IMG/VR virus record: IMGVR_UViG_3300001450_000172
Location: 1 to 25,009 of that record
From: a virus
Length of the DNA: 25,009 bases
Strand: one strand, 5' to 3'
Made by a program: the position numbers and the translations under genes. The notes below the pieces were generated by a model. The model saw only the letters and a list, made by a program, of their open reading frames with translations. It was not told the origin of the DNA and ran no database searches. This document shows, piece after piece, positions 4,360-23,394 of this stretch. Positions within the stretch are counted from its first letter, which is position 1; each line of letters opens with the position of its first letter.

Positions 4360-7300
4360 ATGGGAACAGGTTATACAAGAAACGATACAGACAATAATAT
4401 TGCTGACGGTAATGTTATTAATGCAGCAGACCTTGATGGAGAGTTTGATGCCATTGTAACTGCTTTATCTACCAGTGGTCACACACATGACGGTACGGCT
4501 GCTGAGGGTGGGCCAGTAAGTGTGGTTGGTCCTGCACAGGATATTACTGTTAGTGCTACTATTGTTTCACCTAAATCAAATAATGCAATAGACTTGGGTA
4601 CAGATGCCTTAGAGTTTAAAGACCTGTACTTAGATGGTACAGCTTACATTGATGGACTAGGTAGAGACTTACTTGTCGCTGGTACAAATAAAGTACAGTT
4701 TAATGCTACAGGAAATTATGTAAGTGCAAGTAGTTCTACTATATTAGATATTGTATCTGCTGGTGATATAAACCTTACTCCTGCTTCTAGTGGGGATATT
4801 AATATACCTGCAGATAAAGGACTTACATTTGGTGATGATGGTGAAAAAATTGAAGGTGATGGAACTGATTTAACCATTAGTTCATCTAATGATCTTAACC
4901 TTACTGCAACTACAGACATTAATATCCCTGCAGATGTAGGATTAACTTTTGGTAACGATGCTGAAAAGATTGAAGGTGACGGTACAGACTTAACTATCTC
5001 AGGTAATAATATCAATCTTACTGCTGTAGCTGATGTGAATATCCCATCGGGAGTAGGGTTAACATTTGCAACAGCAGAGAAGATTGAATCTGATGGAACA
5101 GACTTATCAATTACAGTAGGTGCAGGTGGAGACATAAATATACCAACTGACATTGGCTTAACTTTTGGTAATGACGGTGAAAAGATTGAAGGCGATGGCA
5201 CAGATTTAACTATTTCAGGTAATAATATTAATCTTACTGCTGTAGCTGATGTTATTATTCCTACTAACGTAGGGTTACATTTTACTGATGCTAATGAAAA
5301 GATTGAATCAGACGGTACAGACCTGACAGTTAATTCTGGTGCTAAGATTAATTTGACTGCTACTTCAGATGTCCATATTCCTAATAATGTAGGCATTGTA
5401 TTTGGTGGGGCTTCAGAAAAGATTGAGGGTGATGGCACAGATTTAACTATTTCTGGAGCTAAAATTAATTTAAACGCAACAACAGATGTGCATTTAGCTA
5501 ACGATATAGGAATGGTATTTGGTAATGCCGGAGAAAAAATTGAAGGTGACGGTACTAATCTTAGGATCGATTCTAGTGCAGAATTAGATATTGTTGCTCC
5601 TACTATAGATATTGATGCATCTACTTCTGTAGCTATTGATACTGCAGCAATAACAATAACAACAGACACTGCAAGTTTTGTTTCTGCAAATTCTACTGAC
5701 CCTGTAGTAATCATTAAAAATACTACTAATGATGCTAGTGCATCAACACTGCGTTTTGAAAAAGACAGGACTTCTGGAACTGGTGGTTCTAGTGGTGATG
5801 ATATTGGTACAATAGAATTTAAAGCAGGTGATTCTGGTGAAACTCAAGAAGTGTTTGCTAGTATACTTGGTGAAGCTGCTGTAGCTACCAGTGGTCAAGA
5901 AGGTGGTAGACTAACTTTTAGTGTTGCATCTAACGATGGAGAACTTAACTCTGGTTTAATAATTGTAGATGGTGATGCTGAAGATGAAATTGATGTAACT
6001 ATTGGTAGTGCTGTTGGATCTCTTACTACAATAAAAGGTGATGTTCTTTTAGATCATGATGCTGCTGTGCTTGGGTTTGGAGTAAATAATGATGTAACTC
6101 TTACACACGTTCACGACACTGGTCTTTTATTGAACAGCACAATGGCATTGCAGTTTAACGATGCAAGTCAGTTTATAAATGCGCCATCTGCCACCGTGTT
6201 GGATATTACTGCTACAGACGAGATTGAACTTAATGCTACCGCCATTGATCTTAATGGTACGCTTGATGTGTCAGGCACTGCCCTAGTAACAGGCGTCCTG
6301 ACCACCACGGCTGGCACTGTGTTTAACGGTGGGTTTGCTGCGGGAGGTGTAGGTACGTTTGCTGATGGGTCAGTCTCAGCACCTTCAATTACAAACACAG
6401 GTGATCTTAACACAGGCATATTCTTCCCAGCGGCAGACACGATTGCGCTTGCTAGTGGCGGTGTGGAAGAAATGAGAATGACTGCTGGTGGTGGCATAAC
6501 GGTTAACAATGCCCAAAATGCTAATATTAATTTTACTGTTAAGTCTGGTAGTGTGGCAACTGCTTTATTTGTGGATGGGTCTAGTGGTGATATAACTATT
6601 GGCACTGGTGCTGATCTTATTACAAACACAGCAGGTACATCCAACCTACGCCTTGGCGTCAACGCAGGTGATGCAATAGCCTCTGGCGGTGATTACAATA
6701 CTGTCATAGGCGATGAGGCAGGTACTGCAATTACTACTGGGGATAACAACGTAGCTGTAGGTTATCAATCTTTAGGTACAGAAGATACAGGCAGACAAAA
6801 TGTAGCAATAGGTTATCAGGCTTTAGCAACACAAAATAAAGATGACACAAATTTAAATACTGCTGTTGGTTATCAAGCAGGAACAGCAATTACTACTGGT
6901 GTTAGTAATGATATTTTTGGTGGAAGTGCTGGTGATGCTTTAACAACTGGCAGTTTTAATGTAGCAATAGGTAGGTCTTCTTTATCTTCTGATACACTAG
7001 GCTCAACAAGTGTTGCAGTTGGTCACGCTGCTTTAGCTACTCAAAATCAAACTACTGCGGTAAATACTTTCAACGTAGCCGTTGGTTATACTGCTGGTAA
7101 TGATATTACAACAGGTACTTCTAACGTACTTATTGGTGGTCTAACTGGTGATGCATTAACTAGCGGATTATATAACGTAGCAGTAGGAACCAATGCGTTA
7201 GGTGCAGATACACAAGGACAATCTTCTGTTGCGATTGGTGATAACGCATTATCTGCTCAAAATCAAACTACTGCGGTAAATGCTTACAACACAGCAGTAG

Positions 7301-8576: not shown

Positions 8577-9212
8577 ATGGAACTGATACCACGACACTTT
8601 CCAAACGTAGGTGTAGTTGAAGCCCAACTACCAGAAGACGTTGTAGAAAACATATGGAAAGTAATCAATGAAGCAAGAGAACAACCAGAGGACATGAAGC
8701 CTGAACTAGCAGGTAACATTAGTTCTTCTATTAGGTTGGACGCAAGCTCACCTCTACTAGAGAAGTTTGTAGGTGAGGTACTGCCATCCTTTATGGACAG
8801 CCATATACAGAACTATGGCTCACCTTGGAGGGCAGTAATAAAGGAAGGCCAAGGGTTTAACTTGGAAAGCCTGTGGGTTAACTTCCAAAAGAAGTATGAG
8901 TTTAATCCACCGCATGACCACAGTGGCGTGTACAGCTTTGTAATATGGATGCAAATACCTACGTCCTACGCAGAACAACGTAAGCTACCTATTTGTGCTG
9001 AATCAAATGCGGATAATCACATATCTAACTTTGCATTTAGCTACACAAATACGTTAGGCAGAGTAAGTACCTTTGCGTATAATATGGAGAAAGAAGCTGA
9101 AGGATACATGGTTATGTTTCCATCACAAATGCTCCATCAAGTCTTTCCCTTTTATGACAATGATGGAGAAAGAATTTCAATCTCAGGCAACATAACCATA
9201 GAGGATAAATAA
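8577..9212 (+). CDS. 2-oxoglutarate/Fe(II)-dependent oxygenase
   Basis: This 211-residue protein carries the iron-binding facial triad of the phage 2OG-Fe(II) oxygenase family. H113 and H115 lie in PPHDHSGVYSFVIW, preceded by WVNFQKKYEFN, and H187 lies in MVMFPSQMLHQVFPF. R199 in GERISISGN is the expected 2-oxoglutarate-binding arginine. In this family either the HxD/HxH pair or D114 completes the metal site. Such enzymes hydroxylate or otherwise oxidise a protein or small-molecule substrate using oxygen and 2-oxoglutarate and act in the cytoplasm. The gene starts two bases after the fibre stop and belongs to the virion-protein operon, so modification of a structural protein such as the fibre is a reasonable guess. 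The fold call is strong; the substrate is unknown. Confidence 0.85.
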   Translation: MELIPRHFPNVGVVEAQLPEDVVENIWKVINEAREQPEDMKPELAGNISSSIRLDASSPLLEKFVGEVLPSFMDSHIQNYGSPWRAVIKEGQGFNLESLWVNFQKKYEFNPPHDHSGVYSFVIWMQIPTSYAEQRKLPICAESNADNHISNFAFSYTNTLGRVSTFAYNMEKEAEGYMVMFPSQMLHQVFPFYDNDGERISISGNITIEDK

Positions 9213-10477: not shown

Positions 10478-10514
10478 ACCACAACTAAAAAGACTTAAGG
10501 CGGATTTTAAATGA
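10467..10514 (+). CDS. Possible 15-codon bridging frame between two virion-operon genes
   Basis: An ATG at 10467, inside the last codons of the upstream gene but in another frame, opens a 15-residue basic peptide (MAFKPQLKRLKADFK). Its TGA stop at 10512-10514 overlaps the ATG of the next large gene as ATGA. This arrangement would carry ribosomes across the 33-base gap by stop-start coupling. No Shine-Dalgarno specific to this ATG is evident, and a chance frame of this length is common, so confidence is low. Confidence 0.25.
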   Translation: MAFKPQLKRLKADFK

Positions 10515-13500
10515 TAGACTCAAGAGTTAATACCAATATTAATACAGCTAACTCACGTGCTGCAGCAGTTAATAAACCAAACCCCGGTATGATTGCTGAA
10601 AGAATTATGGCAAAGTTTAATCTACCTTCCGTAGAATCTATTAAAGATAATCCTGTTGCACTGCAAGTATTAAGAAATGTATTAGCTAAAACTAATACTT
10701 CTCCTACTCCAATGTCTGCTGCAGAAGGTGGGTCTGTACCACGTAAAACTACTATTGAAGGTCAACCACACGCACTTGCTTATATTAATCCTGAAGAAGA
10801 ACAGATGTTACGTAAAGCTGGTGGTTCAGGTCAACCCGGACCCGGTGGTGTACCTGCTTATCCTACAATATATAAAGATGGGCAAACTTCAGAAGTTAGT
10901 GATGGTAGTGTAGACCTTTTTAAAAGTATGGGGTGGTCAACAACACCTCCTGCATACACTAATACTGCTGTTACTACAGATGCCTCTGCTGAGGAATTAG
11001 CAGATCTTGCCCAACTACCAAAAGAATCTGGACCTCAAAATATTTTAGCACAAGAAACGGAGGCAAAGGATTATGTTAGTAATATTACTGGAGATCCTCA
11101 AACTGCCGTTACTGATTCTAATGAAGCACTTAGAGATTTAAATCTTACATTATCAAGTTTAGAATCTCAACAAGGAACAGGTGAAAATTATAATGAAAGC
11201 CTTCAACTTCGTATAGATGGAGTAAAAAAAGAAATAGAAGGCGCAACAAAAAAAGCCGGTGATGCTCAATCAGTATTATCTGATGAACAAAATAGAAAAA
11301 TAGCTGAAAAATCTTACACTGCTGCTCTTGATCCAACATCTTTAGTAACTAAAGCTGATGTAGCAAGTTTAACTGATGCACCAATAGATCCTGCAACTGG
11401 TTTACCAAAAGAAGAAACTCCTGAAGAAAAAACTGCTAGGCTTGCTAAATTAGAAATAGCTGAAGGTACAGGTAAACTAAGTGAAACTGATCCAACAATT
11501 ATTGCTGGTACAGGTACAGCCTCTACTGCTGATTCTGCGGTAGAAGTAGGAACAAGTCTTGCAGGTACTACAAAAACTAAAGATGATGTTGAAGATGCAT
11601 TAAAAGATCTTGATCCTGCAAAAGGTACTGTTACTAAAGATGTTGAAGGTGCTGTTGGTAAATTATCTGATGGTGCTACACCTGATGCTAATGCTATGGA
11701 CCCTGATTATATCTCTGAAGTAACATCAGGTACACGTAATGTTTCTGAAGATGAACTTGCAAAAGCTCAAGGTTTAAATGAGACAGCAGTAAAAACAAAA
11801 ATAGCTCAAGCTGATATGCCTGATAGTATTAAGGCAGCACAGACTACAGTAAGACCAGAAGAGATTCCTGCCGCTGCACAGATAGCTGAATCAGAAATGG
11901 CTCAAGCTGAAGCAATCACAGCAGATGGTTTATCAGATGATGCTACTGCTGTTGCTAAAAAAATGGAAGCATTTAATGTAGATGATGGTACATTAGCTGA
12001 GTTTAAAGAAGGTAAGATAGAAGCACAAGACACTGTGCAAGGACAGCTTGCTAACCTTATGGCACAGTTTGATGACGGTACACCTGCATGGGCTGCTGGT
12101 GCTATGAGGGCTGCAAATGCTGCTATGGCTGCACGTGGTATGGGTGGTTCTTCTATGGCTGCTGCAGCTATTGTACAAGCCTCTATGGAGTCAGCACTAC
12201 CTATTGCAGTGCAAGATGCTAATGCTTTTCGTGAAATGAAGTTAGATAATCTTGGTCGTCAGCAACAAATTTCTTTAACTAATGCTGCTGCCCAACAAGG
12301 TGTTAAGTTACAAAACTTTAATGCTGAACAAACAACCATGCTTCAGAACTCACAGAATGCATTCTCATTACAAACACAAAATCTCAGCAATATGCAATCT
12401 GCTGTCTTAGCTAATGCTCAGATTAAAGCTGCATTACAAGGTCAAAATCTTAGCAATCAACAGCAAGCTAACATAGCAGAAGCTGCAAGATATGCTGAAG
12501 TAAGTAATCTTAATCTTAATAATCGTCAACAAGCTTTACTACAAGACAGTGCAAATACTTTACAAGTTAATCTTGCAAATCTTAGTACTAAGCAACAAGC
12601 TTATACAGCTAATGCACAACTTGCAGCAGCACTACAAGGTAAGAAAATTGATAACAAACAACAAACAGCTATCTTAAATGCTGCTAAGTTTAGTGAAGCT
12701 AATAACTTAACTTTTACTGCAGCACAACAAGCTGAGATACATAACTCTGAGTTAATGAAAACTGTAGGTTTGGCAAATCTTAATGCTAAACAAGCAGCTA
12801 CTCTACAAGGTGCTGCTGCTATTGCTTCTATGGATATGGCTAACCTAAGTAATGCACAACAAGCTGCAGTTGAAAATGCTAAGAACTTCTTACAGATGGA
12901 CTTAGCTAATATGAGTAATGAACAACAGACAAGTATATTTAAAGCTCAGGCTATGCAACAAGCTTTACTTACTGATGCTGCTGCTGAGAATGCTACTTCT
13001 CAGTTTAATGCTTCTAGTAAAAATCAAGTTGATCAGTTTATGGCAACACTTAAAAATCAAATCTCTCAGTTTAATACTGGGCAAACTAATGCAATGGAAC
13101 AATTTAATGTTGGTGAAGAAAATGCTGTTGAAAAATTTAACTCTGAATTAAAAAATAATAGAGAACAATTTAATTCTGGTCAAGCACTAGCAATAGCACA
13201 AGCTAATGCAGTATGGAGACAAAATATATCTACAATAGATACTGCTGCACAAAATGATGCTAATAGAACTGATGCTGCTGAAAAGAATGGATTGACTGCT
13301 AAATCTATTGATGATATATGGCAAAGAGAAAGAGACGTAATGTCATGGGCTATTGCTAGTTCTGAAAGTGCAGCAGAAAGAGCTATGAATTTGTTACTTG
13401 GAGATATGGATATGGAAGAAGTTAGACAAAAACTTGCATTTACAGAAACAACAGCTAAATCTGCATGGATTAATACATTACTTTTTGGTTCAAATTCAAG

Positions 13501-13525
13501 TGGAGTTTTTGGTGCAATTGCGTAA
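10511..13525 (+). CDS. Large internal virion protein with 22- and 11-residue helical repeats
   Basis: This 1004-residue protein has a low-complexity acidic and Ala/Thr-rich N-terminal half (residues ~1-560). It is followed by eleven gapless 22-residue repeats (residues 581-822, typical unit LSNAQQAAVENAKNFLQMDL) and then by about eight 11-residue repeats (residues 830-917, unit EQFNSGQALAI). The tail (residues ~918-1004) is helical and ends in a hydrophobic stretch. Repeats of 11 residues give three helix turns per unit and usually form right-handed coiled coils, so a very long helix or helical bundle is expected. No enzymatic motif is visible. In this operon position, before a lysozyme-domain protein and a 1210-residue protein, an internal core protein ejected with the DNA is the best guess. 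AAGG lies about ten bases before the ATG. Confidence 0.6.
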   Translation: MIDSRVNTNINTANSRAAAVNKPNPGMIAERIMAKFNLPSVESIKDNPVALQVLRNVLAKTNTSPTPMSAAEGGSVPRKTTIEGQPHALAYINPEEEQMLRKAGGSGQPGPGGVPAYPTIYKDGQTSEVSDGSVDLFKSMGWSTTPPAYTNTAVTTDASAEELADLAQLPKESGPQNILAQETEAKDYVSNITGDPQTAVTDSNEALRDLNLTLSSLESQQGTGENYNESLQLRIDGVKKEIEGATKKAGDAQSVLSDEQNRKIAEKSYTAALDPTSLVTKADVASLTDAPIDPATGLPKEETPEEKTARLAKLEIAEGTGKLSETDPTIIAGTGTASTADSAVEVGTSLAGTTKTKDDVEDALKDLDPAKGTVTKDVEGAVGKLSDGATPDANAMDPDYISEVTSGTRNVSEDELAKAQGLNETAVKTKIAQADMPDSIKAAQTTVRPEEIPAAAQIAESEMAQAEAITADGLSDDATAVAKKMEAFNVDDGTLAEFKEGKIEAQDTVQGQLANLMAQFDDGTPAWAAGAMRAANAAMAARGMGGSSMAAAAIVQASMESALPIAVQDANAFREMKLDNLGRQQQISLTNAAAQQGVKLQNFNAEQTTMLQNSQNAFSLQTQNLSNMQSAVLANAQIKAALQGQNLSNQQQANIAEAARYAEVSNLNLNNRQQALLQDSANTLQVNLANLSTKQQAYTANAQLAAALQGKKIDNKQQTAILNAAKFSEANNLTFTAAQQAEIHNSELMKTVGLANLNAKQAATLQGAAAIASMDMANLSNAQQAAVENAKNFLQMDLANMSNEQQTSIFKAQAMQQALLTDAAAENATSQFNASSKNQVDQFMATLKNQISQFNTGQTNAMEQFNVGEENAVEKFNSELKNNREQFNSGQALAIAQANAVWRQNISTIDTAAQNDANRTDAAEKNGLTAKSIDDIWQRERDVMSWAIASSESAAERAMNLLLGDMDMEEVRQKLAFTETTAKSAWINTLLFGSNSSGVFGAIA
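12251..12976 (+). repeat. Eleven tandem 66-bp repeats encoding 22-residue helical units
   Basis: The units run without insertion or deletion from residue 581 to residue 822 of the large virion protein. The shared pattern is L-S/N-N-x-Q-Q-A at the start, N-A near the middle, and L-x-N at the end. Protein similarity is clear while DNA has diverged, so the array is old and kept by selection. Confidence 0.85.
12998..13261 (+). repeat. Eight 33-bp repeats encoding 11-residue units
   Basis: Units include SQFNASSKNQV, DQFMATLKNQI, SQFNTGQTNAM, EQFNVGEENAV, EKFNSELKNNR and EQFNSGQALAI, followed by two weaker ones. Q-F-N at the start and N near position 9 are the fixed points. The period is exactly half that of the preceding 22-residue array. 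Confidence 0.8.
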
Positions 13526-13568: not shown

Positions 13569-14513
13569 ATGACATTACAATATTATACAAATTGGAAGAA
13601 TGCACACGAAGCTAGAAAGACAAGGGGTTTTTCTGAGGGTGGTTTTGTTTCTGCAACAGGTGCAGAGCTACCTACTAATGTTGATATTTCTAGGGGTGCT
13701 AAAGGTAGATTAGATTCTATTATGGCAAGAAGAGCTTCTAAAAAACTTACTAAAGAAATGCAAAAGATGGCTGAAGAATCTTTAGGTCAACAGTATATGA
13801 ATGCATTTGCTGATGAAAACGAACAGTATCTTACAGCCGGTCTTGAAACAGTTACCCGTGATCCTGATGCAGTGGTATCAAGTAGTGCTCTTAGTGACGA
13901 TGCTTTACAAAAAGAATTTTTAAGTATGTTACAAGAGGGTGCAGAAAAAGGACCACCTATTGATCCTAAAAAAGGTCTTGATATTCGTCCACAAAAAGCT
14001 GAGTCTTTAGAACAATTTACTTTTAATTTTATTGTGGGTAAAGAAGGTTTTAAATCTAAACCTTATGATGATAGAAAAAAAGGTGCTTCTAAACCAGTTT
14101 GGCGTGGGGGTTTTGGTAGTGATACTTATACTACAAAAGACGGTAAAGTTTTTACTGTAAAACAAAACTCCGTTATATCTAAAGAAGATGCAATTAGAGA
14201 TTTAAACCGTAGACTAGAAACAGAGTTTATACCAAGAGTTAAAAGAAGTGTTGGTGCAAATACTTGGAATACTTTAGGTGACTCTACAAAAACAGCTTTA
14301 ACTTCTTATATTTATAACTATGGAAATATTGGTGAGTCAATTATTAAAGCTGCTAATTCTGGTAGTGCCCGTAAATTAGCTGATGCTGTTCGTGCAAGAG
14401 CTGTAGATAATAATGGTATTAATAGTGTTAGAAGAAATGATGAAGCAGACTTAATTGAGTCTGACATGACTGGTCCAGAGTTAATTGTTAAGACAAGGAG
14501 AAGAAACCAATGA
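13569..14513 (+). CDS. Virion-associated lysozyme (GH24-type domain at the C-terminal half)
   Basis: The 314 residues divide into a ~145-residue N-terminal region without known motifs (FSEGGFVSATGAELP, then helical) and a lysozyme-like domain at residues ~150-310. E159 in VGKEGFKSKPYDDRK is the expected catalytic glutamate. The segment WRGGFGSDT (residues 177-185) stands where GH24 enzymes have the catalytic Asp/Thr loop, and TALTSYIYNYG and a terminal NGINSVRRNDEADLI match the usual helical part. GH24 enzymes cut the glycan strands of peptidoglycan. The unusual N-terminal half and the position among large virion proteins suggest it is carried in the particle and opens the cell wall during DNA entry. 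It could also serve as the endolysin, since no other lysozyme is seen in the window. Its stop overlaps the next start as ATGA. Confidence 0.75.
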   Translation: MTLQYYTNWKNAHEARKTRGFSEGGFVSATGAELPTNVDISRGAKGRLDSIMARRASKKLTKEMQKMAEESLGQQYMNAFADENEQYLTAGLETVTRDPDAVVSSSALSDDALQKEFLSMLQEGAEKGPPIDPKKGLDIRPQKAESLEQFTFNFIVGKEGFKSKPYDDRKKGASKPVWRGGFGSDTYTTKDGKVFTVKQNSVISKEDAIRDLNRRLETEFIPRVKRSVGANTWNTLGDSTKTALTSYIYNYGNIGESIIKAANSGSARKLADAVRARAVDNNGINSVRRNDEADLIESDMTGPELIVKTRRRNQ

Positions 14514-14983
14514 TATCACAATTTTCTAATAGACCAATTCCTGGACAGTCCTTAACGACTACTCCAAAGAATGCACAGTATGAGCAACCACCGCAGATCA
14601 CTGACCCAGAAAAAGCTCTTAACTTTCACCTAAAAAATATTTCTAAACCCAAAGCAATGGAAGACATCTTAGAGTTTGTTGATCAAGGTGTCACCATTCG
14701 TGCATTAGTTGAAGGGATACTACGTGGTGGTGTTATGAATGGCATACACTCAATAGATGTAAGTTTAGTTATTGCTCCTGTAGTACATGAGTTTGTTAGA
14801 GGTATACCTTTAGCTGCTGGGATTGAGTTTAGAGATGGCTTTGATGAAGATGACGAAATTGATGAGGCTATGTACAGAAGAAAGAAACCTGACGTAGAAG
14901 AAGAAGAACCTGTTGAGGAACCTACTGTACAAGAAATGCCAATGAAGGAAGAGAAACCTTCTGGCTTAATGGCGAGGGTGTAA
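14510..14983 (+). CDS. Conserved-looking phage protein with acidic tail, unknown function
   Basis: This 157-residue protein has a Pro/Gln-rich start, a compact middle (residues ~38-105, with AMEDILEFVDQGVTIRALVE and GGVMNGIHSIDVSLVIAPVV) and a strongly acidic, Glu/Pro-rich C-terminus (residues ~108-150). The middle is hydrophobic and helical but does not look like a clear transmembrane span. The acidic tail is of the kind found in scaffolding or chaperone-like phage proteins. It is coupled by ATGA to the lysozyme-domain gene and sits two bases before the next gene, so a role in assembling or loading the internal virion proteins is possible. Confidence 0.6.
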   Translation: MISQFSNRPIPGQSLTTTPKNAQYEQPPQITDPEKALNFHLKNISKPKAMEDILEFVDQGVTIRALVEGILRGGVMNGIHSIDVSLVIAPVVHEFVRGIPLAAGIEFRDGFDEDDEIDEAMYRRKKPDVEEEEPVEEPTVQEMPMKEEKPSGLMARV

Positions 14984-14985
14984 AG

Positions 14986-16071
14986 ATGGCTATGGAGTTA
15001 GGTTTCTGGACTGGCATGCGTGAAGCTCAAGTTGATCGCATCAAGAACAAACAAATACAAGACACACTGGACAAAGAAGAAAAACGTTATCAAGAAGGTC
15101 GTGCTGATAAAATAGAAAATCTTAGATTATCTGAACTAACTGGTTTAAGAGCTGCTCTATTACCTCAAGTATTAGATAAATTTACTAATGCTAAAACTAC
15201 CCGTGATTCAATTAATTTACAAATTAAAACTTTAGAAAATTTAAAGTTACGCCCTGACATAGCAAGAGCTTTAGTTAAGTCAGGTCAAGCTGGTAATGTT
15301 ATTAAAACTGCAGAAAAAGATAATGGTTATCTTCGTATAGCATACCTTAATCAAATAACAGAAGCTGTTGAAGATGCTTTTCCTGCGGCAAATGAAAAAG
15401 AACGTACTGCAATGATTATGAAGGGTTATAATTCACTTGGTAATGACATGAGTGATGGTAATCAAATAGCATCTATTATGGGAACTGTTTTTGGTGCTAA
15501 AACACAAGAAGAGTTAATGACTAGTATTGGTGCTCTTGATATAACTATCCCTGACTTTGCTGGTACTGCAGATGCAATTAACATTAATTTTGCAGAGGGA
15601 AAACCTCTTGCTCAAGGTACTCTAACTGCTATAGGTAGAGAAACTAATAGACGTATGGCTACTATACTTGGAGCTGGTGTTAAATTTGTGCCCGAGGCTG
15701 GTACTCCGGGTTCACTAGAGTATAAAAGTACCGACTTTGGTCAAAATCAAGCTGCAGAAATTGTAGGAAAAGTCACTGAAGTTGTCACTAGAATCCAACA
15801 AACCTCCCCTGATTTTTATGGGAATCAAAACATAGTCTTTAATAAAGTTGAGGAGATGGTACAAAATGGTTATGCAGGAATAAATATTATTCAGTTCTTA
15901 GACAAGGGTATAAAAGTAAATCCAAATACAGGTAAGATATACTTTGTTGAAATACCCGCAGCCCCTTCAAGACCAGAAAACCCATCCGAGCAAAAGTTAC
16001 CAAGGCTTGCCATTCCCGGTTTTAATATAGCTGAAGATGAACTAGACGACTTAATTAATCCACCTACATAA
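14986..16071 (+). CDS. Probable internal virion protein, helical, unknown function
   Basis: This 361-residue protein starts with a charged helical region (residues ~8-50, with DKEEKRYQEGRADKIENL) and continues as mixed helix with no membrane segment or catalytic motif I recognise. Two possible ATG codons lie close together (14986 and 14992); the first follows GAGGGTGTAAAG and is preferred. It lies between the acidic protein and the 1210-residue protein in the block that resembles the internal-core genes of short-tailed phages. A structural or ejection role is inferred from position only. Confidence 0.55.
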   Translation: MAMELGFWTGMREAQVDRIKNKQIQDTLDKEEKRYQEGRADKIENLRLSELTGLRAALLPQVLDKFTNAKTTRDSINLQIKTLENLKLRPDIARALVKSGQAGNVIKTAEKDNGYLRIAYLNQITEAVEDAFPAANEKERTAMIMKGYNSLGNDMSDGNQIASIMGTVFGAKTQEELMTSIGALDITIPDFAGTADAININFAEGKPLAQGTLTAIGRETNRRMATILGAGVKFVPEAGTPGSLEYKSTDFGQNQAAEIVGKVTEVVTRIQQTSPDFYGNQNIVFNKVEEMVQNGYAGINIIQFLDKGIKVNPNTGKIYFVEIPAAPSRPENPSEQKLPRLAIPGFNIAEDELDDLINPPT

Positions 16072-16085
16072 AGGCATCCACACAC

Positions 16086-19000
16086 ATGGCTGATAACGTA
16101 ATTCTTGCAGACTCTTCTGGCTTTCGTTCTCCAATTAATCTGATTGATCAGGAAACAAATCTTACTGCTGGTGCAGCAAAGCCAGTGCTACCTAAACTTG
16201 ACCCTGATTTAGACTATGTGCAAGACGTAGAAGGTAAAAACTTTATGGACCTAAAAGAAAACATTGAGTTTCAAAAAGACTTAGTACGTTTTTTTAATGG
16301 TGGTAGATATAAATATACTAAAAAAGAAATTAAAGATCGTGGTGCTGAAGGTTTAGCTGAAGAATTTGTAGAGCATATGCGTTTTCAAGATATGAACGAA
16401 GCTACTCAAATTAAAGATTTATTTTATGCTAGGGATAGCAGGAATAATACACCAGATGAACTTGCTGCATTTGGAAGATTAATATCAGCATGGGATGGTT
16501 CTGAAAAAGGTGGCACAGGTACACTCACAGCCGTTGGTGACTATGCTGCAGGTATTCTTTCTGCCCCATCAACTTGGGCTAGTCTTATAGCTATACCCAC
16601 AACACTTGGTGCTGGTGCTGTAGCTGGACAGTTAGCTAAACAAACTGCTAAAAAAGGTATGCAGTTAAAGTTACGTCAAGTTCTTGCTGATCTTGTAGCA
16701 AAGAAAACAACTGCTCAGATTTTAAAGAAAGGTGTTACTTCAACAACACTTAAAGGTGTTGGTGCAGGTATGGCAGTAGAGGGTGCACTAGGTTACGGTC
16801 AGATTGAAACACAAGAAGCTATCCGTAAAGAAGTAATAGATGAATACAGGGGCATGTCACCGGGACAAAAAGCTCTTGCTACTGGCCTTCAAGCAACCTT
16901 TGGTGGTGTGACTGCAGGTTTTGGTTCATGGTTAAACGTAAGGTCTGCTAATAGTGCTATTGATACTCTGTTTAAACAACAACAACAGATTGAACAACAA
17001 GCTACTGCAGGTGCTAAGAATGCTTTAGCTACTCTACGTTCTAAAGTTGGAAATCCACGTACAGAAAAAAATTTAAAGAACACTTTAGGGCGTCTTGTTA
17101 AAATGACTGACGCATTAGAAAAAAGAGTTGCTAGAAAAGCAGGACAAAAAGCACCACTACCTGCTCAAGGTGTAGCTGAAGGTCAAAAAATTCTTAATGA
17201 AATCTTTGCTGAAAAACCAAACACTAATATTATTGGTGGGTTATCTTCACAAACACTTCAAGGTATTACTGCTGCTACTATTGAGATAGTAGAAAAACTT
17301 GAAATTGGTCCTAACGAGAGAATTAGTACTGCTGTTGCTAAGGCTATCTCTAAACCAGAAGGTTCTCCAGGAGCTGTTAGCACTAAAGAAATAACAGATA
17401 TACTAGATAGTTATGCTATAACTAGAGAGGAGTTTAGTAACGTATACCTAGCAGAACTATCTGAAGCAGGTACTACCCTTGGTCAAGCTGGTATGATTAG
17501 TAGAGCTTTTGATCAGGCTAAACTTCCTAGATTCCGTAGTGATACAAACAAAGATGTAGAAGCTTTGTTGTCTGACATAACAACACTAGGTAAAGCTGGT
17601 ATCTCAACTGTGGATGACTTACTTGCCAGACAGGAAGTAGACCTTGCCAGTAAATCTAACTTTGGAATGAAGTTGTACAAAGGTATACAAGAACTAGATG
17701 CTGTTCGTATTGGCTTTATGACATCACAGCTTGCTACAACAGCACGTAACGTAGGATTCTCTGTTGCTAGACTTGGTGTAGATGCTAGTGATCAAGTCTT
17801 TAGAAGTATTCTTACAGGTACAGCTAGGGCTGTTGGATCAGATATTCCTCACACACCAGCAAGAAATACTTTTACTATGCTACGGGGAATGTCTTATGAT
17901 AAAGACATGGCTCTTGTTGCTAGAACAATGTTAGAACAAGATCTTCCTGCTGTTTATAAGAAGTTATTTAGAGATACAAGTAGAGTTGAAGTAGCCACAG
18001 GTTCACAAACATTTCTTGCTAGGGCTTCAACCTTTGTTAATACTTTGAACAGTGCTACTGACCATGTGTTTAAACAAGCAGCTTTCTATGCGTCTCTTGA
18101 TAGGCAACTAGCAGAAGCAGGTAGTAGTTTTGCAGACTTTGCAAAGTCAGGTAAGACAATGTTAGAGATTGACCCTGATATACTAGAACGTGCTGGTCGT
18201 GATGCATTAGACTTTACATTTCAAAAAGGGTATGAAGGTTCTGATACAATCTTTGGTATGGGTGCTAATTCTATTATAAATTTAAATAGAAAATTACCTT
18301 TTGTTGTTTCTGGTGCAGCGGGTTTACCTTTCCCAAGATACGTAGCAAATCATATGGAGTTTATGTTTGACTACGTACCTCTATTAGGTGGTGCTAAAGG
18401 TATCTCTGAAAAGCTTGCTCAAAAATACTACGGCCCTGACTTCGCCTTTAGTAAAGACAAGGGACAACTAGAACGTTGGTCAAAACAAATGACTGGTACT
18501 TTAATGTTTACCGGTGCATACTATGCAAGAGCAACTCAAGAAGGTGAAACAGATTTTTCAGATTTTAAATTTTCTGAAGATGGAGATGTGGCTAAGATGG
18601 GACCAATCTTAGGTGCAATGGGTGGTCATGCTTTAGCTGCTGACTTATTGTATAGATACGTAGAGGACTTACCTCTTCCTACGGATAAAATGTGGCTTTC
18701 AAATGCACTAGAAGTTACAGCAGGTATGGGTAGCCTTGGTTTTAATACTGGTGTAGTAAAATCTTTTAGAGATTCTCTTGAACAAGGTTCGTTTACTGAG
18801 GGTAGTAAAAGAAAAATGGCTGATATTCTTGCTACCTTTACTTACCCCGCTGCACCAGCTAAAGATTTTCTTGCTCAGGGTGATCCAGAGAAATCCTATA
18901 CTAGATACAACCCTGATCTGCAGACCGATGCGAATATGATTATTGAGCTAGGAAAATGGGGAGAGTTTAACAGTCGTGTTAGTAAGTTTATACCACAGTT

Positions 19001-19718
19001 TGATTGGATTAATCATGCTAAGTCTGTGAATAGTGCTACAAGTTTACCAAGATATTCACCGTTTAATCCACGTCCCATTGGTACTATCAACCCTGCAATG
19101 AAACAAATTGTAGGTATTGATGTACGTGCTCAGTCTGAAATACAAGAAGAACTATCTATGCTTGGTTTAAAAGAGTATGACTTATACAAAAACTCAACAG
19201 TACAAAATCCTGTAATCAGGTATGTAGTTGAACAAAGGCTATCACAATATTTAAGTAAAGAGTTTATACGTTGGAAAAAAGAACCTCAAAAAAGACTAAG
19301 TGGTAAAACTTACGACGATCTTCAGGCTGTAGATGCTGATGTTAAACGAGAAATTTTTTCCACTTGGGTTACAGATGAAATTAAAGCTGTTGTTAATCAA
19401 ACAAAGTTGAGATGGCACGGAAAAGAACCTACAAAAGATGAACCAAATGGTATTATTGGGTATAAAGACATAGCACCCACTTCAGCAGCAGGGTATATTA
19501 GGAATATGTATATGATTCAAGGTAAGACACCTATTCTAGGTAGACCTAGATTTGATATAGGTGCACAAGCTATACCCAACTCTAATTATGAAACAGCAGA
19601 AGAATATTTGTCTGAATCAACAAGTCTTCTTGATGAATTAAATCGTAGACAAATGCTTATGTACTATGCAGACAAAGCTGAAGATGATACAAAAGCTGAA
19701 AAAAATCTAGGTAACTAA
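16086..19718 (+). CDS. Very large internal virion / DNA-ejection protein
   Basis: The 1210-residue chain is mainly helical, with several hydrophobic or amphipathic stretches. These include residues ~150-186 (GILSAPSTWASLIAIPTTLG, then GAGAVAGQLAKQ), ~220-240 (GVGAGMAVEGALGYG), ~262-282 (ALATGLQATFGGVTAGFGSW) and ~740-775 (PFVVSGAAGLPFPRYV). Long helical proteins with membrane-active segments, encoded at the end of the virion block, are typical of ejection proteins such as T7 gp16 that form a channel across the envelope. No lysozyme or transglycosylase motif is seen here; that activity may be supplied by the separate lysozyme-domain gene upstream. The gene ends head-on against the - strand module, with the two stop codons overlapping. 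The function is inferred from size, composition and position. Confidence 0.6.
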   Translation: MADNVILADSSGFRSPINLIDQETNLTAGAAKPVLPKLDPDLDYVQDVEGKNFMDLKENIEFQKDLVRFFNGGRYKYTKKEIKDRGAEGLAEEFVEHMRFQDMNEATQIKDLFYARDSRNNTPDELAAFGRLISAWDGSEKGGTGTLTAVGDYAAGILSAPSTWASLIAIPTTLGAGAVAGQLAKQTAKKGMQLKLRQVLADLVAKKTTAQILKKGVTSTTLKGVGAGMAVEGALGYGQIETQEAIRKEVIDEYRGMSPGQKALATGLQATFGGVTAGFGSWLNVRSANSAIDTLFKQQQQIEQQATAGAKNALATLRSKVGNPRTEKNLKNTLGRLVKMTDALEKRVARKAGQKAPLPAQGVAEGQKILNEIFAEKPNTNIIGGLSSQTLQGITAATIEIVEKLEIGPNERISTAVAKAISKPEGSPGAVSTKEITDILDSYAITREEFSNVYLAELSEAGTTLGQAGMISRAFDQAKLPRFRSDTNKDVEALLSDITTLGKAGISTVDDLLARQEVDLASKSNFGMKLYKGIQELDAVRIGFMTSQLATTARNVGFSVARLGVDASDQVFRSILTGTARAVGSDIPHTPARNTFTMLRGMSYDKDMALVARTMLEQDLPAVYKKLFRDTSRVEVATGSQTFLARASTFVNTLNSATDHVFKQAAFYASLDRQLAEAGSSFADFAKSGKTMLEIDPDILERAGRDALDFTFQKGYEGSDTIFGMGANSIINLNRKLPFVVSGAAGLPFPRYVANHMEFMFDYVPLLGGAKGISEKLAQKYYGPDFAFSKDKGQLERWSKQMTGTLMFTGAYYARATQEGETDFSDFKFSEDGDVAKMGPILGAMGGHALAADLLYRYVEDLPLPTDKMWLSNALEVTAGMGSLGFNTGVVKSFRDSLEQGSFTEGSKRKMADILATFTYPAAPAKDFLAQGDPEKSYTRYNPDLQTDANMIIELGKWGEFNSRVSKFIPQFDWINHAKSVNSATSLPRYSPFNPRPIGTINPAMKQIVGIDVRAQSEIQEELSMLGLKEYDLYKNSTVQNPVIRYVVEQRLSQYLSKEFIRWKKEPQKRLSGKTYDDLQAVDADVKREIFSTWVTDEIKAVVNQTKLRWHGKEPTKDEPNGIIGYKDIAPTSAAGYIRNMYMIQGKTPILGRPRFDIGAQAIPNSNYETAEEYLSESTSLLDELNRRQMLMYYADKAEDDTKAEKNLGN

Positions 19719-21160: not shown

Positions 21161-23062
21161 CTATGTTATGTCTACCATTTCACACACGTCACCAGTACAT
21201 GCCATGGTCTGCATACCTGATGTATTATCCTCTGCTTCATAGGATGATAGCTTTGTCCAATCAATATTCTTAGGCATTCGATCTAGTAAAATATGATAGT
21301 CTGTAGCTACACATTCCTGATAAGGTGCTTGTTGATATGTGTGTTCATTGAAAGGTAGGAAAGACACACCTGACATTTCATCAAAGTGTTTATACACAAA
21401 TGCTCCTACCTCAAACCATTCATCAGCCCTGACATTAATTGTAACACTAGGCTTATGCTCACACCAATGACGTTGATACATAATCCACATTTCTAGCTGC
21501 TCTATTGCAGTCATGTTAGCAGTATGGATAGCACCATCAGGTGACTTCATTGGAAAACTAAACACTGTAGTCTGATCAGGCTTCATAACATCTGCTTCAC
21601 TAGGGATGCCTTGATCCACCATAAACTGTGTCAGGGGATCTTTGTTGTCAGCTCGTACAGTCCTAATGTAAAAAGGAGAGTGACGTGCATGAATACCAGA
21701 AGCACTATCCACCAATTGGGAAACTGTTCCTGATGGTTTAACGCAAGAGATAGCAGTAGAGACAGGGATACCCAAACGGTCAGCCCACTCAGTATTAGTA
21801 GTAATAGCAACATCTTTTAAATACTCCAATGTATCTGATAGCCCTTTGTTCTCCATAGTCATTAAAGGATTATCCATTATCCCCGTGAGTGACACACCAA
21901 GCAAACGTTCTGCTTCTGTATTGTTAGTCCACACCTTGCGCAAGTACGGGAAGTGTGTGTAGGTTGCTTGAATAGTTCCAAGGATAGTTGCAATTCTGAC
22001 TTTACGTGCAATATCTTCGATACCATCTGACGAACGAATGACAACCTCTGAGAGATTGCAGAACTGATTCGGCCTAAGAATGATCTCTGAGCAAGGGTTT
22101 GTTCCGAACTCATAGCAAGACTCTCTACGGCCATTCTTTGCAGCTTGTTTAACTGATGCTTCTCTGTTGAATATTCCACGTTCACCACTCCCACTTTCCA
22201 TAAGAGCACCCCACTCACGCATGAAAGCAATACTATCAGGCTTTTCTGAATAGGACACCGAGTTATTAGCCAAGGCACGATGAGCTGCATTCTCCCACCA
22301 GTTCCCTGACTTGGCATGACGCATACGATCATCTGATAGATTGGACAGAGAGATCATAGCACTACGTCTTACACCACCTACTACCACTACCTCACCTATT
22401 TTACACATCAAGTCATGACACTCAATACTAGATAATCTACGTCCTTCTGCACCCTTAAAAGTATTAACGGTAAACATAAACAGATCAACTAAAGGTGCAG
22501 GACCACTAGCCCTACCACCAAATGTCTTTAGCCTTGCACCTGCAGGGCGTACCCTGGAAACATCCCACTTAGGAATTTCCCCAGCCCATAGGAGTGCTAA
22601 AATTTGTCTGAGTCCTTTCGCCCAACCTTCCTTACTGTCCTTGATGACAACCGTAGTCTCACTATCGAACAAGGTAGGAACATCAGGGAGCTTAGTGATG
22701 AACTGTCTCTCAACACTGAAACCAACCCCCGTACCACAAAGCAAGATGAACATAGCCTCATCGAAGGACTTAGGGTCATCTACGGGTAGATAGCTACAGT
22801 TATACATACAAGTATTGTCACGCATACTAGCCTTACCAGCAGTCATCATGGACCTCATGGAGGGCATGACCTGTAGTGATAAGATGTGATGACGGATAAG
22901 ATCAAGGTCAAACTTTTCACTGGTTACTGGCTTGATAATGTTATCTATGTAACGTTCAACAGTTTCAGTCCATGTCTCACGTCTGCCCTCATCTTCAAGC
23001 CACCTTGCGTAACGGCTGGTTGCAATGAATGTTTGATAATCAGTAGGTAGATAGTTACTCAT
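21161..23062 (-). CDS. nrdJ: Adenosylcobalamin-dependent (class II) ribonucleotide reductase, monomeric RTPR type
   Basis: This 633-residue enzyme reduces ribonucleotides to deoxyribonucleotides for phage DNA synthesis, using vitamin B12 coenzyme. The active-site segment reads NPCSE at residues 322-326 (C324 as thiyl-radical cysteine, E326 as general base), with C335 eleven residues later. This is the same spacing as C408 and C419 of the Lactobacillus leichmannii enzyme. The partner cysteine is probably C89 in MYNCSYLP. The C-terminal redox pair is C622 and C627 in ACTGDVC, with the same five-residue step as in the Lactobacillus enzyme. GTVSQLVDSASGIHARHS is another family segment. It is shorter than the 739-residue bacterial enzyme, as phage versions often are. 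GGAG lies seven bases before the ATG, which overlaps the MazG stop as ATGA. It implies a host that makes or imports B12. Confidence 0.93.
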   Translation of the reverse strand: MSNYLPTDYQTFIATSRYARWLEDEGRRETWTETVERYIDNIIKPVTSEKFDLDLIRHHILSLQVMPSMRSMMTAGKASMRDNTCMYNCSYLPVDDPKSFDEAMFILLCGTGVGFSVERQFITKLPDVPTLFDSETTVVIKDSKEGWAKGLRQILALLWAGEIPKWDVSRVRPAGARLKTFGGRASGPAPLVDLFMFTVNTFKGAEGRRLSSIECHDLMCKIGEVVVVGGVRRSAMISLSNLSDDRMRHAKSGNWWENAAHRALANNSVSYSEKPDSIAFMREWGALMESGSGERGIFNREASVKQAAKNGRRESCYEFGTNPCSEIILRPNQFCNLSEVVIRSSDGIEDIARKVRIATILGTIQATYTHFPYLRKVWTNNTEAERLLGVSLTGIMDNPLMTMENKGLSDTLEYLKDVAITTNTEWADRLGIPVSTAISCVKPSGTVSQLVDSASGIHARHSPFYIRTVRADNKDPLTQFMVDQGIPSEADVMKPDQTTVFSFPMKSPDGAIHTANMTAIEQLEMWIMYQRHWCEHKPSVTINVRADEWFEVGAFVYKHFDEMSGVSFLPFNEHTYQQAPYQECVATDYHILLDRMPKNIDWTKLSSYEAEDNTSGMQTMACTGDVCEMVDIT

Positions 23063-23394
23063 CTATTATCTCCGCTTCCCTTTAGTGTTCCCCTAGCTTC
23101 TCTTCCATCTAACTTTACCATGTTCTGTGCAATGATAGCAGCTAGATTAAACCCGTAGTAGTTAGCCAATGCTGTGGTATAGAACAATACATCACCTAGT
23201 TCCAATAGAATATCTTCAGGAGATACCTTTGTATCATCACGGATACGTTTCTTTATCTTACCTGCAACTTCCCCAGCCTCTTCACAAAGGCCAAGGGTGT
23301 TCTCTGTTAGACGATCTTCAGGTAAAGTAATAATCTTACTTTCAACCCACTCACTGTAACCCTCAAAGGCTTGCATGTCTTCATTCGTCATCAT
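23059..23394 (-). CDS. mazG: MazG-like nucleotide pyrophosphohydrolase
   Basis: This 111-residue all-helical protein has the MazG metal-binding motifs: EEAGE (residues 38-42) and ELGDVLFY (65-72). These form the ExxE...ExxD set that binds Mg2+ for hydrolysis of nucleoside triphosphates or related nucleotides. Phage MazG proteins are proposed to clean up nucleotide pools or to lower (p)ppGpp. Placement directly before the reductase, coupled by ATGA, fits a nucleotide-supply role. Two adjacent ATG codons lie at the start, inside the last 14 bases of the upstream small gene. The family call is strong. Confidence 0.88.
   Translation of the reverse strand: MMTNEDMQAFEGYSEWVESKIITLPEDRLTENTLGLCEEAGEVAGKIKKRIRDDTKVSPEDILLELGDVLFYTTALANYYGFNLAAIIAQNMVKLDGREARGTLKGSGDNR

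Follow-up and report, generated by a model that had tools for sequence, protein, structure and literature searches.

Length steps of five 22-residue units in the repeat array of a putative DNA-delivery protein from HMO-2011-type marine podoviruses

The DNA analysed here (the window) is the whole 25,009-nucleotide stretch at positions 1 to 25,009 of IMG/VR record IMGVR_UViG_3300001450_000172, and its source virus is an HMO-2011-type marine podovirus, of which the window is a fragment, lying on a viral contig of 29.7 kb. A repeat protein of 1004 aa, recognised by its open frame and homologs, is encoded on the plus strand at 10511-13525. Its N-terminal variable region (residues 1-500; 10511-12010, +) was delimited by its Ala/Thr/Glu/Asp-rich composition and is without a family match; the part preceding the anchor ranges from 144 to 1114 aa among homologs. 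A conserved Ala/Gly/Met-rich hydrophobic anchor (TPAWAAGAMRAANAAMAARG...ESALPIA; residues 501-577; 12011-12241, +) was defined in two alignments and contains the top 19-residue hydropathy of the protein (1.44). The anchor is followed by eleven 22-residue repeats (residues 578-819; 12242-12967, +) without insertions or deletions, through which the homologs also align gap-free, by a half unit at the 22/11 junction that was placed by sequence and alignment (LTDAAAENATS; residues 820-830; 12968-13000, +), and by nine 11-residue repeats (residues 831-929; 13001-13297, +) that were identified by autocorrelation and by the QFN-to-W spacing. Six of the nine 11-mers are strong, namely the first six, which start with [QK]F[NM]. 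A conserved Trp-containing helical region and a variable C-terminal tail (13298-13525, +), defined by alignments, complete the protein.

The initial annotation had placed eleven 22-mers and eight 11-mers at 12251-13261, which is correct apart from a few residues of phase. Its description of the 22-mers as indel-free over 242 residues agrees with the gap-free residues 578-819, and the shift to units of half the length was found to be in register and conserved across the family. It was silent on the 577 in-frame residues preceding the array, and since these lie in the same frame, the array, which occupies the C-terminal 40% of the ORF, is not a stand-alone protein. In BLOSUM autocorrelation against shuffles, z was 12.0 at lag 22, 12.0 at lag 66, 9.7 at lag 44 and 6.7 at lag 11, and the 11-mer part by itself gave z = 7.3 at lag 11. 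The repeats of the window are Ala/Gln/Asn-rich and weakly charged, with Gln at position 8 in 11/11 of the 22-mers. A tandem repeat in the array is no longer detectable at the DNA level, so the repeats are old.

Downstream of the repeat gene, a lysozyme-domain protein of 314 aa (13569-14513, +; Pfam PF00959, E 1.1e-6, above the cut-off; PHROG endolysin) is followed by a small protein of 157 aa (14510-14983, +; 29% identity to HMO-2011 phage1322_24, E 2e-18), a medium protein of 361 aa assigned by synteny (14986-16071, +) and a very large protein of 1210 aa that is homologous to HMO-2011 phage1322_22 (16086-19718, +; E 3e-14), the last three forming the trio of a putative ejection module. The setting beside a lysozyme-domain protein and a 1210-residue protein, noted in the initial annotation, is supported and belongs to an ejection-like module. 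Gene order was compared in HMO-2011, CRP-3, CRP-603, CRP-738, CRP-207, HTVC033P, HTVC115P, phiM6, RHph_N3_13, CHOED, MQM1 and Slicky01, and the repeat gene was upstream of a small/medium/very large trio in all of them, in the order repeat protein, lysozyme or small ORFs, about 160 aa, 360-930 aa, and 800 to about 1900 aa. In some relatives the lysozyme position is taken by a cell-wall hydrolase (PF07486 in CRP-603) or the gene is missing from this place. The module is placed downstream of the tail genes, and in most isolates the coding strand then switches to nucleotide-metabolism genes; in the window, a B12-dependent ribonucleotide reductase (21161-23062, -) and a MazG-like pyrophosphatase (23059-23394, -) are encoded past the module, as in HMO-2011. 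Between the tail-spike and the putative delivery-module genes of the window lies a 2OG-Fe(II) oxygenase gene (8577-9212, +; PF13759, PHROG 81), and two genes of this kind occupy a comparable position in HTVC033P. The 1404-aa tail-spike ORF carries a Peptidase_S74 chaperone domain close to its end and includes a 117-bp tandem repeat (5334-5549, +; 1.8 copies, 74% matches).

Searches of Pfam, PHROGs and NCBIfam gave no match to a family of ejection proteins for either the trio or the repeat protein. Such families diverge fast, and for this reason an ejection role is compatible with that result. The large protein at the equivalent position in HTVC033P contains LPD38 (E 1.3e-23), a domain of polyvalent proteins, which have been argued to enter the cell with the phage DNA (PMC5512222). 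Because the 1210-aa protein of the window gave no detectable match to this protein, HTVC033P gp52 (E 0.17), the LPD38 argument is positional for the window. Within the 1210-aa protein, residues 485-542 weakly resemble the alpha C-terminal domain of RNA polymerase (E 2.8e-4 in Pfam, which is under the cut-off; NCBIfam 0.0097). This likeness was rejected as a candidate feature; it was clear in the closest homologs only and may be due to chance.

Homologs of the repeat protein were found in 26 phage records and hundreds of IMG/VR contigs, the best annotated relatives being those of Puniceispirillum phage HMO-2011, Roseobacter CRP phages, Pelagibacter HTVC phages, phiM6, CHOED, MQM1 and others. 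One homolog (L081) is on a contig filed as a Euryarchaeota MAG (PAZU01000016.1), which is probably a phage contig binned with that MAG. The window protein aligned with its HMO-2011 counterpart, phage1322_25 (ADW08438.1), at 48% identity across 41% of the query (E 1e-57); homology to this family extends over the anchor, the 22-mers, the 11-mers and the Trp-containing C-terminal region in nearly gap-free alignments, and the position upstream of the trio (about 160 aa, medium and very large) is shared. Vibrio phage CHOED_013 and its equivalents in HMO-2011-type phages are likewise homologous through the 22-mers, 11-mers and Trp region and share the gene order. The arrays differ in size, with 7 units in HMO-2011, 12 in the window (as counted below) and 3 in CHOED. 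Among the homologs conservation is in the middle of the protein rather than at one end, and both the N- and C-termini are variable. No family for the repeat protein was present in Pfam, PHROGs or NCBIfam, and a profile of the homolog alignment detected no sequence relatives in the PDB (E<=1). The initial annotation knew of no described family with this repeat shift; members are in fact already annotated, nearly all as hypothetical proteins (phage1322_25 and CHOED_013, for example), and in the literature found on HMO-2011-type relatives neither the repeat nor a length ladder is described.

Array lengths were scored in a sample consisting of the best 80 loci per scan, from which identical sequences were removed and to which anchor-only and type II scans were added. 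Units were counted by subtracting 42 from the spacing between the anchor and the first 11-mer and dividing by 22; on this scale the window has 12 units. Almost every relative examined keeps the change from 22 to 11 residues in register. For 281 of the 293 distinct homologs among the matches listed, the spacing between anchor and first 11-mer equals a constant plus a whole number of 22-residue units, and a further 8 of the 293 differed by multiples of 11. The 11-mer array alters in steps of 11, the QFN-to-W distance being 5 mod 11 in 191/191 homologs scored. Two ladders were recognised. Type I proteins (PAWAAG anchor) had 2, 7, 12, 17, 22 or 27 units (5n+2) in 202 of 210 cases and type II proteins (PxWA[KR]P anchor) had 5, 10, 15, 20, 25, 30 or 35 units (5n) in 67 of 73 cases, again among the matches listed, and these counts are biased by sampling, so that the frequencies should not be taken as abundances. 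The step in both is five units, or 110 aa, and both ladders survived clustering at 80%. Arrays of 8, 9, 11, 13, 16, 18 or 19 units did not occur among the matches listed in the homolog sample. The phiM6/CRP-3 group reads 3.9 units because its anchor seems to be shorter by one or two residues. Arrays that fall off the ladder, at 6.5 and 12.5 units (L079, L235, L240, L189 and a few others) correspond to the change of a single 11-mer.

In a type I tree computed without the array, the length labels switch about 20 times, and well supported branches force at least six changes for the 12-unit class and at least four for the 22-unit class; the length classes are few and are clustered on the tree. Close pairs of four kinds, in which the flanks are 81-99% identical, differ in length by precisely one block of 110 residues, and clean 110-aa indels were located at residues 262, 242, 216 and 272 past the anchor. 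The gained or lost block is 32-56% identical to the adjacent blocks. Identity between units five apart was raised in type I arrays of 22 and 27 units (0.40-0.44 vs about 0.27) and in type II arrays of 20 to 35 units (0.26-0.32 vs about 0.20), and was not raised in the 12-unit class, including the window, or in the 15-unit type II class. A lag-3 (66-residue) superperiod suggested by the window was confined to the 12-unit class and was discarded as a family rule. From the ladders, the changes on the tree, the 110-residue differences between pairs and the lag-5 identity of the long arrays, the five-unit block is a real evolutionary unit. It is this five-unit quantum that is new here; no description of a 110-residue length ladder was found in the literature searched, the coverage of which was incomplete and may have missed one.

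The initial annotation had read the whole array as one continuous right-handed helical rod or bundle that could be part of an ejected channel spanning the envelope. AlphaFold2 run with 97 homologs (mean pLDDT 68, pTM 0.42; a monomer model of middling confidence) was all-helical and gave instead a separate helix of 14-16 residues for each 22-mer, with about six other residues; the helix began at unit position 6 in 11/11 22-mers and ended at about 18-21, pLDDT in the array was about 60-84, and long helices were confined to the 11-mer part. With 20 homologs the same pattern was obtained over a large part of the array, in a model (pLDDT 43) too poor for structure search. Neither AlphaFold2 run thus supports one unbroken rod as the straightforward reading, although the strict register and the scarcity of proline speak in favour of it. 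Among 891 distinct family units, position 5 of the 22-mer is Ser/Thr/Asp/Asn in 90% and Gly is enriched at position 1, which suggests helix ends near positions 1 and 5. Proline was found in 6 of the 891 units, every one at position 9, and the linker between the 22-mer helices does not vary in length. The hydrophobicity of the window 22-mers has a weak peak at 98.25 degrees per residue; in the family, the helical harmonic (6/22) accounts for 7% of the 22-mer hydrophobicity variance, compared with 33% at 131 degrees, and the family value at 3/11 is 16%. Mean-field couplings peaked at i+4 in both the 22-mer and the 11-mer arrays and were somewhat stronger between positions of one predicted helix than between positions on either side of a linker; they are helix-like but lack a distinct peak at the longer separations of 22, 44 or 110, and so do not decide between a rod and a solenoid.

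Foldseek returned nothing against the PDB at E<=0.001, and VIA-align gave Z values of up to 7.2, mostly to designed helical repeats and long helices, a range that the tool calls uninformative. Four BFVD matches (E 2e-19 to 3e-6, 27-39% identity) look like members of the repeat protein's own family, and the tape-measure entries ranked beneath them were not significant. A fully helical straight array would measure about 7 nm with 2 units and 115 nm with 35 units, which fits poorly with a channel through a single envelope or with storage in the head.

The T7 genes 14-15-16 have been described as an operon, and DEV 73-72-71 have a comparable small-medium-large order (PMC10925440). The window trio resembles T7 gp14/gp15/gp16 and DEV gp73/gp72/gp71 in this order, with a lysozyme nearby; it is the three downstream ORFs, and not the repeat protein, that form a small, medium and very large operon of the T7 type past the tail genes. 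No sequence match was found between the T7 and DEV ejection proteins and those of the window, and the repeat protein is encoded by an extra gene ahead of the 14-15-16-like trio, without an evident T7 counterpart. In exchangeable apolipoproteins such as apoA-I, 22-residue repeats are mixed with 11-residue repeats, and these form proline-punctuated, lipid-binding amphipathic helices, whereas the window array is nearly proline-free. The phiX174 DNA pilot protein H shares with the window protein an amide-rich helical array in which hendecads turn into another repeat length, the lumen of its tube being mostly amide-lined (PMC7354561); in H, however, three hendecads are followed by heptads, whereas in the window 22-mers are followed by 11-mers, and phiX174 is a tailless single-stranded DNA phage, unlike the window podovirus. 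The profile search of PDB sequences (E<=1) detected no similarity to the solved H tube. Given such mixtures in H and the apolipoproteins, a change of repeat length is not in itself unprecedented.

On these grounds the repeat protein is read as a structural part of the virion that belongs to a DNA-delivery module and in which the modular array serves as a stalk or spacer, a reading to which we assign a probability of roughly 0.45. It is favoured by the kept gene order and by the position of the trio, which is like T7 14-15-16, and of LPD38; we infer virion location, ejection and membrane contact from gene context and positional homology, the literature search having found no virion proteomics for any relative. 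The protein would be packed in the particle and ejected together with the small, medium and large proteins encoded just downstream. Its alpha-helical array may be organised in three tiers, in which each 22-mer is a pair of hendecads and every five 22-mers make up a 110-residue module that would be evolutionary and probably also structural. The array would link the Ala/Gly-rich hydrophobic anchor, a possible membrane contact, to the more continuous 11-mer helix and the C-terminal domain, and because of this connection it may act as a stalk or spacer that gains or loses length in whole modules.

The main functional rival is a fibre shaft. In an external tail appendage, the array would form the shaft of a whisker, needle or fibre, with the variation in length usual for fibre shafts, and the anchor or C-terminal region would fix its attachment to the tail. 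Such an appendage is suggested by a gene that comes after those for tail spikes and tail fibres, both in the window and in its relatives, by the variable termini, and by a range of 2-35 units, more in keeping with a shaft than with a channel across the envelope; it is nevertheless unlikely in view of the conserved place immediately ahead of the putative ejection trio in every isolate compared, of a protein without a fibre, receptor-binding or chaperone domain, and of conservation that lies in the middle and not at one end. A non-ejected internal head protein, such as a core or DNA-organising protein, would suit the amide-rich, weakly charged repeats and a gene within the late structural block, but the lysozyme gene and polyvalent-type large protein of the same module argue for delivery, no core or scaffold family was matched, and we regard this alternative as distinctly improbable. 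Also unlikely is a continuous right-handed hendecad helix forming a trans-envelope tube with an Asn/Gln-lined lumen like that of phiX174 H, itself built of hendecads whose inward residues are mostly amide and guanidinium (PMC7354561). The strict 11/22 register with hardly any other indels, the confinement of the rare proline to position 9, the Ala/Gln/Asn-rich composition and the 98.25-degree peak of the window are all consistent with such a tube, and an oligomeric tube would be compatible with the AlphaFold2 result, that model being of a monomer. It is opposed by the break once per 22-mer in that model, by the dominance in the family profile of the 131-degree component (33%) over the alpha harmonic (7%), by the helix-end residues at positions 1 and 5, and by the span of about 7 to 115 nm that straight arrays of 2 to 35 units would have.

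A separate question, compatible with the delivery-module reading since it concerns the quantum and not the function, is whether the 110-aa ladder is history alone, an early five-unit block having been followed by in-phase unequal recombination between blocks without any structural reason. This is quite possible, if somewhat short of an even chance: the lag-5 identity of the long arrays, the 32-56% identity of a gained or lost block to its neighbours and the few, tree-clustered length classes are as it would predict. On the other side stand the presence of two ladders (5n+2 and 5n), each with its own anchor, the about 20 label changes in type I with their well supported minima for the 12- and 22-unit classes, and the scarcity of single-unit indels although the units are themselves repeats. 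The 12- and 15-unit classes moreover hold the quantum without lag-5 similarity, so that it is not simply the result of recent block duplication or of visible lag-5 contacts. That array length changes near-exclusively in whole 110-aa blocks points to an undescribed repeat architecture, and we infer that 110 residues may be one turn or domain of the fold. The fuller proposal, in which a single closed turn or domain, belonging to a fold absent from the PDB, is built from five 22-mers (ten hendecads, 110 residues) and the array is a length-quantised modular stalk for DNA delivery, is speculative and on balance rather unlikely; if it were true, viable arrays would need whole turns plus a fixed remainder.

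That length changes by a fixed step of 110 residues in both lineages offers a natural experiment on the constraints that act on repeat proteins. The ladder predicts a structural period of five units, and with it the role of array length in infection becomes testable.
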